From Leptotrichia wadei (GTDB taxonomy: Bacteria > Fusobacteriota > Fusobacteriia > Fusobacteriales > Leptotrichiaceae): a DNA stretch of 64,000 nt. Both the position numbers and the translations under genes were made by a program. The notes under the pieces were generated by a model. The model was not told the origin of the DNA. It made no database searches and saw nothing but the letters and a program-made list of their open reading frames with translations. Location of the stretch: NCBI RefSeq assembly GCF_007990445.1, contig NZ_AP019841.1:682001-746000 (forward strand), read 5' to 3'. The first letter of the stretch is position 1, and each line of letters starts with the position of its first letter. Below, piece after piece: positions 6,593-9,919 of this stretch.

Positions 6593-7545
6593 ATGGGGTT
6601 ATATGACGAAGATGGGAAAAATAGCGAGCCATATAGCATAGAGGCTGAAGAGGCACTTCTTGGGTCTGTCTTTATAAATCCTAATGTTATGGGAGATGTT
6701 GTTGATATTATAACAGCTGAAGATTTTTACAAAAGTAATTATAAATTGATTTTTTCTGAAATGATTAATGCCTATAATTCTGGAAAAATAATTGATGTGC
6801 TTTTGATAATTGAGGCTTTGAAAAAAAAGGAATTAATGGATGAAGTTGGAGATGAAGAAGTTATTTATGATTTGACTGAAGTTGTGCCAACTGCTGCAAA
6901 TGCTGTTAATTATGCCCAAATTATAAAGGATAAGTCTGTTCAGCGCCAATTAATAGCCATTGGGGAAAAAATTGTAAGAATGGCTACACGTGGGTATGAG
7001 GAAACAGATGCGATGCTTGATAAATCAGAAAGCATGATTTTTAAAATTGCAGAATCTAAGCAGAAAAAAGAAATTGTAAAATTATCTGAATTGGTTCAAT
7101 CTAAAGTAAAACGGCTAGATGATGGTTCGGAAGCTAAAGGAAAAATAACTGGCATTTCTTCAGGATTTAGCAGATATGACAGTATAACAAGCGGGTTTCA
7201 CGGGTCTGACTTAATAATTCTTGCGGCACGTCCTGCAATGGGAAAAACTGCATTTGCATTGAATCTCGCAATAAATGTTGCAAGGCAAGGTAAAGGAGTG
7301 CTTATATACAGTTTAGAAATGGGAAATGAGCAGCTGTTTGACAGGCTTGTGGCAAGTGAGTCGAGAGTTAGGTTAAAGGGAATAAAGGATGGAACTTTGA
7401 CTTCGGAAGAGCTTGTAACTTTGGGAGATGGGCTTGGGCGGCTTTCTGAGATGCCAATTTATATTTCAGATTCTGCAAGTGTAACAATGCTGGAAATAAA
7501 GGCTAATGCAAGACGGTTAAAGGCTGAAGGGAAGCTGGATTTTAT
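6593..7545 (+). CDS. dnaB: Replicative DNA helicase DnaB, exon 1
   Basis: This encodes residues 1-317 plus two bases of codon 318. It contains the N-terminal DnaB domain (SIEAEEALLGSVFINP at about 15-30), the linker, and the RecA-like helicase core with Walker A ARPAMGKT at 212-219. Coding stops at Walker B: without splicing the frame reads Ile-Lys and ends at TAG 7550-7552, giving a 319-residue protein that lacks Walker B and the rest of the core. Joining to 9436-9919 restores a 478-residue DnaB, normal for the family. DnaB is the hexameric helicase at the replication fork and should be essential. The start ATG at 6593 follows a weak GGAAAGTGAG site. Confidence 0.93.
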
Positions 7546-7608
7546 TAAATAGTGCAAGAACACTCGCAACTTTAGTCGTGAGGTGAATTGCACGAAAATT
7601 TTAGTAAG
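7541..7608 (+). other. Intron P1 helix and 5' splice site
   Basis: Exon bases UUUAU (7541-7545) pair with GUAAG (7604-7608), with the conserved-type U-G wobble U7545-G7604 at the splice site. The intron side continues the helix: UAAA (7546-7549) with UUUA (7600-7603), then GTGCAA (7552-7557) with TTGCAC (7588-7593). A left-end hairpin containing AGTCGTGAG caps it. The pairing fixes the likely 5' splice site after 7545. Confidence 0.65.
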
Positions 7609-8018
7609 CATATAGGGAAACTTGTATGTAGACACGGAGCAAAACCGTGCAACAAAGAAACTGAATTGCTAGGAACTCTTAAAGCTAGTATAACCACAAC
7701 ATAATGCTTAAGTGAGAATATGGTATAAGTGTGATGGTGGCGAAAGCAGAAAAAATATACTAGATGGTGCAAGGTTAAATCCTAAACATTATGATAATAG
7801 ACAATCAGCAGCTAAGCCTGAAAAGGAAAGTTCAACGACTATCCCTCGTGAGGGGAGTACAATACAAGCGATTGGTATTGGAAGTGGTTTCGCCTAAGTC
7901 CTTGAAATAGGATATGGATAAGATATAGTCTGTGCTTGTTAGAGATAACAAGAAGTTCATAAGAGAACTGCATAAATGGTAGCGTATTTATGTGAACGAC
8001 GCTTCCCACTGTTGTGGG
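7546..8018 (+). ncRNA. Group I intron ribozyme core
   Basis: Core elements are readable in order. There is a P/J segment with GGTTAAATCCTAAAC (about 7773-7787) and a Q-like element AATCAGCAGCTAAGCCT (7803-7819). The R element GTTCAACGACTA is at 7830-7841, a P7.1-like hairpin CCCTC/GAGGG at 7843-7854, and the S element AAGATATAGTC at 7920-7930. GACTA in R pairs with TAGTC in S to make P7. A P9-like stem CTTGTTA/TAACAAG (7935-7952) is closed by a GAGA (GNRA) tetraloop. The P7.1 insertion suggests subgroup IA. I did not fold P3-P8 fully by hand. Confidence 0.85.
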
Positions 8019-8071
8019 GTTTTAAAAACTTTAAAAATATTTAAAAATAAACAGATAAAATGTAGAATACA

Positions 8072-8080
8072 TGGTATAAT
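8072..8080 (+). promoter_or_regulatory. Promoter of tnpB inside the IStron
   Basis: An extended -10, TGGTATAAT (8072-8080), lies 28 bases before the tnpB ATG. The -35 region is weak. It would allow tnpB expression separate from dnaB transcription. Confidence 0.5.
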
Positions 8081-8108
8081 ATCTCTGATGAAAAGGAGGT
8101 GATTATAT

Positions 8109-9356
8109 ATGTATTTAACATTAAAACAACAGGTAAAACATCTTAGTAAAAAAGAGTTTAGGAATTTAAAACATTTATCTCATATAGCCAAGAACTTAAC
8201 TAATGAAGCTATATATAATATTAGACAATACTATTTTAAAAATAAAAAGTATTTAAGTTATAACGAAAACTATAAAATGCTTAAAAATAGTGAGAACTAT
8301 AAAAAATTAAATTCTAATATGGCTCAACAAATTCTAAAAGAAGTAGACGGAAGTTTTAAATCATTTTTTGGACTTTTGAAACTTGCTAAAAATGGTCAAT
8401 ATGATAATAAAAAAATAAAATTACCTAAATATCTTGCTAAAGATGGTTTTACAACTCTTGTTATAGGTTTTGTAAGATTAAAAGATGATATTCTGATAGT
8501 TCCTTATTCAAATTCATTTAGAAAGACACATAAGGAAATCGCAATAAAACTACCACCAGTATTAAAAGGCAAGAAGATAAAAGAGATTAGAATAATACCT
8601 AAACAACATTCTAGGTACTTTGAAATTCAATATACTTATGAGGTAGAAGAAGTTCAAAGGGAATTAAATAAAGAAAATGGACTAGGAATTGATTTAGGTA
8701 TAGACAATCTTTGTACTTGTGTAACTAATAATGGAGCATCATTCATAATAGATGGTAGGAAATTAAAATCTATTAATCAATACTATAATAAGACAAATGC
8801 AAAATTACAAAGCATAAAAGATAAGCAAAAGATAGAGCATATAACATTAAGGCAAAAGAGAATAGCTAGAAAGAGAAATAATCGTATAGAAGATTACCTT
8901 TCAAAAGCAGCAAGAATAATTATAAATTATTGTCTTAATAATGATATAGGAAAAATAGTTCTAGGATATAATGAAGATTTTCAAAGGAATTCAAATATTG
9001 GAAGTATAAATAATCAAAACTTTGTAAACATACCATATGGAAAATTAAGAGATAAATTAATATATCTATGTAAGCTATATGGAATAGAATTTAAGCTACA
9101 AGAAGAGAGTTATACATCAAAAGCAAGTTTCTTTGATGGAGATGAAATTCCAATATATGATAAAGAAAATCCGCAAGAATATGTATTCAGTGGAAAAAGA
9201 ATAAAAAGAGGACTATATCAAACAAGCAAAGGTAAACTCATAAATGCAGATTGTAATGGAGCATTAAACATATTAAGGAAAAGTAAAGTTGTGGACTTAA
9301 GTGTCCTATACAATAGAGGTGAGCTGAACACACCTAAAAGAATAAGGATAGTGTAA
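8109..9356 (+). CDS. tnpB: TnpB RNA-guided endonuclease (IS200/IS605 OrfB type)
   Basis: A full-length 415-residue protein with an excellent AAGGAGGTGAT site 8 bases before the ATG. The RuvC triad is intact: D195 in GIDLGI, E289 in GYNEDFQ and D381 in INADCNGALNILRK. The TSKASF segment at 336-341 precedes a region that in many TnpB proteins has zinc-knuckle cysteines. Here those cysteines are missing, as in a common clostridial and fusobacterial TnpB branch. The N-terminal half is the basic RNA/DNA-binding part. Family members use an RNA transcribed from the element's right end to cut DNA next to a short motif, which returns the element to empty sites. No tnpA accompanies it. Confidence 0.92.
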   Translation: MYLTLKQQVKHLSKKEFRNLKHLSHIAKNLTNEAIYNIRQYYFKNKKYLSYNENYKMLKNSENYKKLNSNMAQQILKEVDGSFKSFFGLLKLAKNGQYDNKKIKLPKYLAKDGFTTLVIGFVRLKDDILIVPYSNSFRKTHKEIAIKLPPVLKGKKIKEIRIIPKQHSRYFEIQYTYEVEEVQRELNKENGLGIDLGIDNLCTCVTNNGASFIIDGRKLKSINQYYNKTNAKLQSIKDKQKIEHITLRQKRIARKRNNRIEDYLSKAARIIINYCLNNDIGKIVLGYNEDFQRNSNIGSINNQNFVNIPYGKLRDKLIYLCKLYGIEFKLQEESYTSKASFFDGDEIPIYDKENPQEYVFSGKRIKRGLYQTSKGKLINADCNGALNILRKSKVVDLSVLYNRGELNTPKRIRIV

Positions 9357-9435
9357 AGCTATCAAACTTTTTAGAAAATTTTTGAATATTTTTAAAGATT
9401 TTAGAACCCTGCGACTTTAGTCGTGGGAGGTTCAG
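9357..9435 (+). ncRNA. Predicted TnpB guide-RNA scaffold / element right end
   Basis: After the tnpB stop comes an AU-rich stretch, then an imperfect hairpin: CCC (9407-9409) with GGG (9425-9427), a bulged T9410, and GCGACT (9411-9416) with AGTCGT (9419-9424), capped by TT. This is the usual shape of IS200/IS605 right ends, where TnpB guide RNAs terminate their scaffold. The guide would be the flanking dnaB exon 2 bases from 9436 on. The hairpin base overlaps the long-range helix (9404-9409), so the two folds compete. The 5' end of this RNA cannot be set from the sequence. Confidence 0.55.
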
Positions 9436-9919
9436 GCTAATTGACTATTTGCAGTTAATAAGCCCTTCAGCAAATTCAAGAAAGAGTCGTGAGCAGGAAA
9501 TATCTGAAATTTCACGTTCACTAAAAATACTTGCAAAAGAGCTGAATATACCAATTGTGACACTTTCACAGTTATCCCGTGGAGTGGAGCAGAGAGTTGA
9601 CAAAAGACCAATTTTATCAGATTTGCGGGAATCGGGAGCAATTGAGCAGGATGCGGATATGGTAATGTTTCTATATCGTGAAAGCTATTATAACAAAGAT
9701 ACTGCTACAGAAGTGAATAATGTGGATGTTCCAGATAAATATGTTAAAAAATCACAGGACTTGCCAAAAACTGGAGAAAAACAGGAAATGGAAAAAGTTG
9801 AACTGATAATCGGAAAGCACAGAAGTGGACCGACTGGTACGATAGAATTGGGATTTTTTCCTAATTATCAGCAATTTGTAAATGTTGTGGATGATGAATT
9901 TGCACCGTCTGCAGAATAA
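9436..9919 (+). CDS. dnaB: Replicative DNA helicase DnaB, exon 2
   Basis: The second exon begins with one base completing codon 318, then CTA-ATT-GAC encoding [20 protein letters not shown], which is the Walker B/H2 motif of DnaB. It continues with [40 protein letters not shown] (H3), the arginine-finger region [11 protein letters not shown], and the acidic tail. It has no ribosome site of its own, and the first possible start (TTG 9449) lies inside Walker B, so it makes sense only as part of spliced dnaB mRNA. Confidence 0.92.

Follow-up and report, generated by a model that had tools for sequence, protein, structure and literature searches.

An IStron in the only dnaB gene found in Leptotrichia wadei: a group A element that very probably splices itself out

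The dnaB gene is essential, and the locus described here raises the question of how DnaB can be produced from a copy that is interrupted by 1,890 foreign bases. The window, i.e. the whole stretch of DNA that was analyzed, comprises 64,000 nucleotides of Leptotrichia wadei (NCBI RefSeq assembly GCF_007990445.1, contig NZ_AP019841.1, positions 682,001 to 746,000 of the forward strand). Coordinates without a prefix refer to the window, all features located in it are on the plus strand, and loci and genomes are cited by our own handles (L and G numbers, respectively). An earlier examination of the letters without database searches (the sequence-only reading) had placed a TnpB-bearing group I intron at 7546-9435, that is, an IStron, which combines a group I intron with an IS605-type element. 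The present analysis led to a compatible answer: a group A IStron is located after TTTAT in the only dnaB found, and it very probably splices out of the transcript to give DnaB mRNA.

The interruption was delineated by open reading frame (ORF) calling and Pfam searches, which placed dnaB at 6593-7545 and 9436-9919. The frame from 6593 has 319 codons and is ended by a TAG (7550-7552) contributed by the insertion; the 5′ exon therein (6593-7545) encodes residues 1-317 plus two bases of codon 318, as established from the ORF, the Pfam matches to DnaB and DnaB_C, and comparison with empty sites. The 3′ exon (9436-9919; ORF, Pfam, and exon joining) extends from the last base of codon 318 to the stop and starts at Walker B. 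Positions 1-133 of the DnaB_C profile matched upstream of the insertion and positions 138-255 downstream. When 7545 was joined to 9436, a DnaB of 478 amino acids was obtained, and the junction reads KLDFMLIDYLQL; exactly this product had been expected from the excision of 1,890 bases. The split of DnaB_C and the empty site of relatives also agreed with the claimed insertion at Walker B and its boundaries of 7546 and 9435. The proposed point of resumption was correct for the gene (9436), but LIDYLQL begins at 9437, because G9436 is the last base of the Met318 ATG codon.

The element is flanked in dnaB by TTTAT on the left and GCTAATTG on the right, and the empty site in the uninterrupted dnaB of relatives reads TTTAT followed directly by GCTAATTGAC. 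Intron-free alleles with a TTTAT flank, which the sequence-only reading had suggested seeking, were present in the two closest genomes, G011 (DnaB 98% identical) and G016 (94%); both have an uninterrupted dnaB with an identical junction, GATTTTAT^GCTAATTGACTATTTG. The empty-site alignment indicated insertion without target duplication. The best DnaB match was unsplit and stop-free in 32 of the 32 other family genomes searched, and the insertion was found in none of them. At the best 80 of at least 593 relatives' loci, the DnaB matches spanned 1,284-1,377 bases, leaving no room for such an insertion. A distribution of this kind (one of 33 family genomes, with the closest relative empty) would also be expected if the insertion were recent or heterogeneous, with part of the population having an empty dnaB and the assembly showing one state. 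The source assembly (2.40 Mb, 4 contigs, completeness 100) contains no empty site, however: the only match within 2 mismatches to TTTAT plus the first bases of the 3′ exon (the predicted guide, described below) was the element's own right junction, where the guide is preceded by TTCAG. A mixed population is considered very improbable, and a recent or heterogeneous insertion would leave the nature of the element unchanged.

A second intact dnaB, which the sequence-only reading had named, in combination with a missing spliced junction in RNA, as evidence that would speak against it, was not found in a Pfam DnaB_C search of the source genome; this search returned the two exons and one weak partial match. 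The latter (32.6 bits, C1:1305796) is what could be adduced for another helicase, of phage or plasmid type, supplying DnaB and making the split gene dispensable. It covers only profile positions 4-108, in a frame of 457 amino acids that we take to be probably RadA, an assignment that we count against such a substitution, and there was no other match. Further, both dnaB exons appear constrained, as in a working gene: the codon changes on the gene's own branch numbered 14 synonymous and 2 nonsynonymous in exon 1 and 9 and 3, respectively, in exon 2, with changes before and after the insertion being inseparable in these counts. A substitute helicase is therefore judged to be extremely improbable.

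The catalytic core of the intron was located by the Rfam model RF00028, which matched 7604-7952 at 50.8 bits (gathering threshold 50, E 3.6e-12, model positions 1-253 of 253) when 7590-7970 was searched alone. A whole-genome scan gave an equal score at this locus and matched 11 places, 6 of them above the cut-off. For the fold, 17 sequences were aligned: eight IStron copies from the same genome (including that in the window) and nine related introns, one of which is an IStron copy without its insertion sequence (IS) part in G016. Thirteen helices, P2 to P9.2, were assigned and named on the class IA2 plan. P2 (7609-7628) has a GAAA loop. P3 (7657-7662 with 7886-7891) and P5 (7685-7763; 7685-7691 with 7757-7763) were paired in 100% of cells and each had 4 pairs changed on both sides, while P4 (7666-7670 with 7807-7811) had none. 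P7 (GACTAT at 7837-7842, with 7925-7930), which we take to be the guanosine-binding helix, was invariant in 17 of 17 sequences and hence offers no covariation evidence for or against itself. It is followed by P7.1 and P7.2 (7843-7880), the two extra hairpins of class IA2, which, like P2, were placed from the alignment and pair counts. In P8 (7899-7912), 4 of 4 pairs had changed on both sides, with 85.3% of cells paired. The core is closed by P9, P9.1, P9.2, and GAACGA (7935-7999), after which the IS part follows in the position described in PMC4227781.

Taken over all helices, 94.4% of 1,164 cells were paired, and 28 of 72 pairs had changed on both sides. The covariation score was 0.322, compared to 0.137 ± 0.008 for shuffled alignments (0 of 500 as high) and at most 0.082 with slid partners. 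The P3 pseudoknot helix was paired in 102 of 102 cells and was partly recovered by RNAalifold unprompted. The covariation in these sequences supports a group I fold, and all six strict core motifs are intact in the window copy. Were the ribozyme dead or weak, DnaB might still work as two separately translated halves (residues 1-319 plus a piece begun in exon 2), since the frame of exon 1 is closed by a stop codon no more than seven bases into the element and a TTG-started ORF of 156 amino acids lies in exon 2. However, the split lies at Walker B, inside the ATPase fold, and the TTG lies within the Walker B coding region, such that the second half would miss part of this motif. Together with the intact core motifs and the fit to RF00028, these points make two working halves extremely improbable.

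PMC4227781 characterizes group A IStrons by a class IA2 intron with P7.1, P7.2, and an extended P9 (P9.0, P9.1, and P9.2); an IS part located after P9.2 and GAACGA or a similar sequence; an ORF B of the IS200/IS605 type; insertion after TTGAT, ATTAT, or TTTAT; a TCAG end; no target duplication; a paired P1 that places a U.G at the 5′ splice site; and self-splicing. The dnaB element (7546-9435, T...TTCAG, bounded by the empty sites and by 15 near full-length copies in the genome) has the IA2 helices P7.1, P7.2, P9.1, and P9.2, GAACGA at 7994-7999 with the IS part thereafter and tnpB beginning at 8109, TTTAT, TTCAG, no duplication, the U.G, and ORF B. As judged from its sequence, it is a group A IStron composed of a group IA2-type intron and an intact IS605-type TnpB; the RF00028 match, the helix covariation, and the intact tnpB thus bear out the type of element originally proposed. 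The left-end hairpin CTCGCAACTTTAGTCGTGAG (7563-7582) is situated within an extended P1 (stem 7552-7557 with 7588-7593), and the right-end hairpin CCCTGCGACTTTAGTCGTGGG is at 9407-9427; both were identified from the sequence and RNA folding. A minus-strand self-match revealed an AT-rich inverted repeat of 32 bases (8017-8048 and 9378-9409, 91% complementary), and a short CCCAC/GTGGG hairpin is present where the IS part starts.

How the ribozyme would recognize its 5′ splice site was studied in 56 copies: the 15 near full-length ones of the source genome (of which L026 is internally deleted) and 41 full-length ones from six other genomes of the genus, 24 of them from G014, which may contain more because at most 24 candidates per genome were scored. 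In the window, TTTAT (7541-7545) is both the insertion target motif, presumably the target-adjacent motif, and the 5′ splice-site recognition sequence; as UUUAU at the exon end, it pairs with the internal guide sequence GUAAG (GTAAG in the DNA, 7604-7608), and U7545.G7604 forms the U.G at the splice site in the paired P1. TTTAT was kept in 56 of 56 copies (one with an extra T) and accompanied by the GTAAG guide in 55; the exception, L026, retains the target and has lost the guide through its deletion. The TTCAG end was found in all 56. Eight related introns in the genus are preceded by TTGAT, followed by TAAA, and seven of them have the guide GTCAG, with GTCAA in the eighth (L123b); either guide can pair with UUGAU. 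The guide of L122 was read by eye, and TTGAT was chosen because it is common to all eight introns, four of which have another T-rich pentamer nearby. Target and guide were thereby shown to differ together between the IStron families compared (TTTAT/GUAAG and TTGAT/GUCAG). Because the exchange of U-A for G-C preserves the pairing, it constitutes comparative evidence that the ribozyme reads the insertion motif of the transposon.

The positions of the copies within genes were also informative. A copy was counted as mid-gene and sense when one and the same frame stayed open over 35 or more codons both before and after it; the remaining classes were assigned by simple length rules. By these rules, 34 of the 56 copies are mid-gene and sense, 10 are located at the 5′ end or leader of a gene, 7 are in the last codons, and 5 are unclear. 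The same rule applied to both strands gave 34 sense copies vs. 1 antisense-only copy at 35 codons and 25 vs. 0 at 60 codons (p 1.5e-12 and 2e-10, respectively); TTTAT sites themselves are commoner in antisense (279, compared to 194 in sense, in 40 ORFs of the window). Reading phases (0, 1, or 2 bases left over) were observed 9, 3, and 22 times, vs. 17, 6, and 11 expected (p 2e-4). The commoner phases halt the ribosome no more than 2 codons into the element, whereas the rarest allows 13 codons; this skew is in line with PMC4227781, in which an in-frame preference was noted.

Derivatives without the ribozyme, sorted by the same rule, behaved differently from these copies: none of the 11 (six of 45-47 bases and five of about 312 bases) was mid-gene, whereas 34 of the 56 copies were (Fisher p 1.5e-4). 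Two of the 11 are located at the 5′ end or leader of a gene, one is at a frame end, and eight are intergenic or unclear. Adding four truncated pieces gave 0 of 15 (p 1.2e-5). L026, whose ribozyme is short by about 170 bases (the core being deleted), is inserted near the end of a binding-protein gene, with two codons left before the stop. The positions of the intact and the broken copies lend indirect support to the statement of the sequence-only reading that the element cannot lose its ribozyme.

Several observations weigh against splicing as the source of DnaB or reduce the force of the evidence for it. That splicing takes place in the cell, and that DnaB arises solely from spliced mRNA, we infer from sequence alone. 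The RF00028 match exceeds the cut-off by 0.8 bits and is borderline. At the gathering threshold, cmscan gave no group I match in the whole window and none at four loci, three of which had scored 50.8-54.6 in the genome scan (the fourth being a longer stretch around one of the other three copies), and a cmscan of 7450-9500 listed no Intron_gpI up to E 10. An Infernal result without Intron_gpI in 7546-8018 had been named beforehand as contrary evidence; since 7590-7970 alone and the genome scan both gave 50.8 bits, the misses in wider runs do not signify absence, and the match was probably lost in the speed filters. Of the five measures of covariation, one (the count of additional pair types) was no better than in shuffled alignments (49 vs. 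52.0, with 487 of 500 shuffles as high). P2.1 as drawn fails when applied to the divergent introns, where it is 63.5% paired, and a two-base loop makes a fifth pair in P7.1 impossible. At least one of the six strict core motifs is missing in 9 of the 56 copies, 6 of them mid-gene; the 5 of these 6 that were inspected (all but L119) differ by a single base, either substituted or inserted. The single antisense copy at 35 codons, L021, has a sense frame that opens into an agmatinase-like gene of 273 codons. The TTTAT frequencies were drawn from ORFs of the window only. The own-genome copies are on the plus strand at 82-969 kb and on the minus strand at 1,682-2,305 kb; replication direction may therefore contribute to their sense bias, but it leaves unexplained why ribozyme-less derivatives were not found mid-gene. 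Finally, the same nagB-like insertion occurs in three genomes (L024, L107, and L119), making the copies partly non-independent; the IStron there was probably kept by descent.

The protein encoded by tnpB (8109-9356) has 415 amino acids and belongs to the RNA-guided endonuclease family. The gene is intact, as the sequence-only reading had it: its 415 codons contain PF01385 and PF07282, and the product matched NF040570 (guided_TnpB) at 211.5 bits (cut-off 100). A frame of at least 405 codons was retained in 50 of the 56 copies. A structure model calculated from 6 sequences (pLDDT 79.6, pTM 0.61) was matched by Foldseek to Cas12f (best E 3.6e-18) and to TnpB (8h1j, E 1.2e-12); a phmmer search of the protein against solved structures gave no match. 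The RuvC residues D195, E332/E333, and D381 were invariant in 6 of 6 sequences. At the canonical position of the RuvC-II glutamate, G-Y-N was read by eye, with residues 331-340 being modeled at low confidence (mean pLDDT 54), and E332/E333 are found where PMC10711439 places an alternative glutamate. Activity of the protein is likely.

The probable scaffold of its omega RNA consists of the 3′ end of tnpB and the right end of the element (9245-9435, start approximate), and the predicted guide is the start of the dnaB 3′ exon (9436-9451), as inferred from its position. Two of the genome's own 312-base minis have lost the coding sequence of TnpB and yet retain the 3′ 191 bases at 88-89%; this retention points to a functional omega RNA. 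No TTTAT-preceded target of this guide was present in the genome within 2 mismatches, and one chance-like match with 3 mismatches lies elsewhere; the dnaB alleles of G011 and G016 still carry the TTTAT-plus-guide target. As for transposition, the one Y1 transposase of the genome belongs to another IS605 element, and its action in trans on the IStron was rejected because the left end of its element mismatches. An IS605-type element with TnpA, a TTTAT target, and an IStron-like left end was encountered in G014 and G012 (L247, L248, and L251); the likeness of the left end was detected by blastn in G012 only (78% over 36 bases) and by eye in G014. This element is a candidate source of transposase in trans, and a TnpA of its kind was not found in the source genome.

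The sequence of events may then be as follows. The IStron would be co-transcribed with dnaB, and the group IA2 ribozyme would take the target of the transposon as its 5′ splice site (UUUAU with the guide GUAAG). Two transesterifications would cut after U7545 and after G9435, and the joined exons would form a normal DnaB mRNA. Guided by an omega RNA whose end is dnaB sequence, TnpB would be able to cut an intron-free dnaB. Because the 3′ splice site is also the boundary between scaffold and guide, splicing and guide RNA would be alternative fates of a transcript. More tentatively, two locks could make the element indispensable, DnaB being obtainable via the ribozyme only and a dnaB-guided TnpB destroying any intron-free dnaB, whether newly arisen or acquired; we consider this proposal rather less probable than its negation.

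Splicing and guide RNA are reportedly antagonistic in IStrons with an active TnpB and an omega RNA (Zedaveinyte 2024, in Science). Those IStrons reportedly share with the present one the coincidence of splice site and guide-scaffold boundary; the dnaB element differs in that the activity of its TnpB is a prediction and the glutamate of RuvC-II appears to occupy the alternative position.

IStrons as such are familiar in this phylum. PMC4227781 counts 294 full-length examples from Firmicutes and Fusobacteria, with LbISt1 of Leptotrichia buccalis among them, and establishes that they keep insertions silent, as the sequence-only reading had also held; PMC1924603 describes five in F. nucleatum. LbISt1 and FnISt1/FnISt2 (F. 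nucleatum), which are group A IStrons, share with the dnaB element an IA2 intron, ORF B without a full ORF A, a T-rich target, and a TCAG end, at 1,760-2,045 bp, and PMC4227781 gives from 1 (LbISt1) to 6 copies per strain, vs. 15 here, one of them in dnaB. CdISt1 of Clostridioides difficile, the founder of group A, has the same target, end, and ribozyme class and a TnpB downstream of P9.2; it splices (PMC4227781, PMC1924603) and reaches 24 copies per genome. In contrast to CdISt1, the dnaB element lacks TnpA and has the long AT-rich inverted repeat, a trait that PMC4227781 gives for group B; for group A, a short (6-10 bp), compositionally balanced inverted repeat round the ORF region is given there, as a descriptive rather than a defining trait. 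Intron-like stretches of plasmids and of Staphylococcus, Clostridioides, and other phages were 69-75% identical over parts of the core (intron-only matches among the 20 of 34 and 20 of 110 records listed); unlike the dnaB case, no gene is annotated beneath these plasmid or phage stretches in records with annotation, which several of the records lack. PMC4227781 lists a "DNA helicase", which may or may not be a dnaB, among IStron host genes. The sequence-only reading knew of no IStron described in a Fusobacteriota dnaB, and no report of one in dnaB was found in the open-access literature among the matches listed; with an IStron already listed for L. buccalis, the mere occurrence of an IStron in Fusobacteriota is not a novelty. 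What is new is the place (dnaB), the copy number, and the natural controls; the type of element was already known.

Other observations concern relatives of the element. A second IStron family with a TTGAT target and a different TnpB was found in G005 (L122:~1250-2740, near the start of a lipoyl-domain-like gene and beside a pyruvate-dehydrogenase E2-like gene), with a similar one in G016 (L121:~390-1760, in a LysR-like gene). Their TnpB-like frames have the usual RuvC-II motif (ENLQVKNM and EDLQVKNM), and the G005 element is possibly, as a guess, LbISt1 itself. The 45-47-base micro-elements of the source genome (L031:1723-1767 and L126-L130) are fusions between the left-end hairpin and the right end, in which TTTAT is followed by (T/G)AAATAG...; none is mid-gene, and L130 is at the end of a 125-codon frame. 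The minis of about 312 bases (L027:2001-2312, L028:1884-2195, L131, L132, and L133, from four genomes) have neither the ribozyme core nor tnpB, but the omega RNA region and the two ends are preserved in them. At L124:8565-9095, an IStron copy minus its IS part persists as an intron of about 530 bases between genes. Three group I introns interrupt the precorrin-6A reductase gene cobK (L025:2780-6660; G000:C1 ~224.8-228.7 kb), whose IStron was counted above among the five unclear copies. This IStron follows TTTAT, and the other two introns follow TTGAT and have no IS part. The cobK exons matched positions 1-65, 68-199, and 199-240 of the NCBIfam profile, with scores under the whole-protein cut-off, as would be anticipated for parts of a protein. 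Two introns with flanks matching the cobK case were seen in two further genomes (L123 and L124).

The names of genes other than dnaB, cobK, and tnpB were assigned by visual inspection of the translations. Those resembling DNA replication or repair genes are recG (twice, at different sites), sbcC, recJ, mutL, ruvB, and dnaB (L015, L088, L101, L108, L110, L116, and the window). Two IStrons split a start codon as AT/G, L022 in a methyltransferase-like gene of the source genome and L086 in a guanylate-kinase-like gene of G014, and that start codon is absent unless the transcript is spliced.

The view that IStrons are harmless because they are spliced could be tested strictly in L. wadei, in which a failure of splicing in the apparent sole dnaB should be lethal; the intact and ribozyme-less copies across the genus serve as controls. 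The matched difference between target and guide suggests how one short motif serves both DNA insertion and RNA splicing. The dnaB copy is also a natural case for studying whether elements can become fixed in essential genes through the action of an RNA-guided nuclease. If the two locks proposed above are real, replication in this organism would depend on how each transcript is split between splicing and guide RNA.

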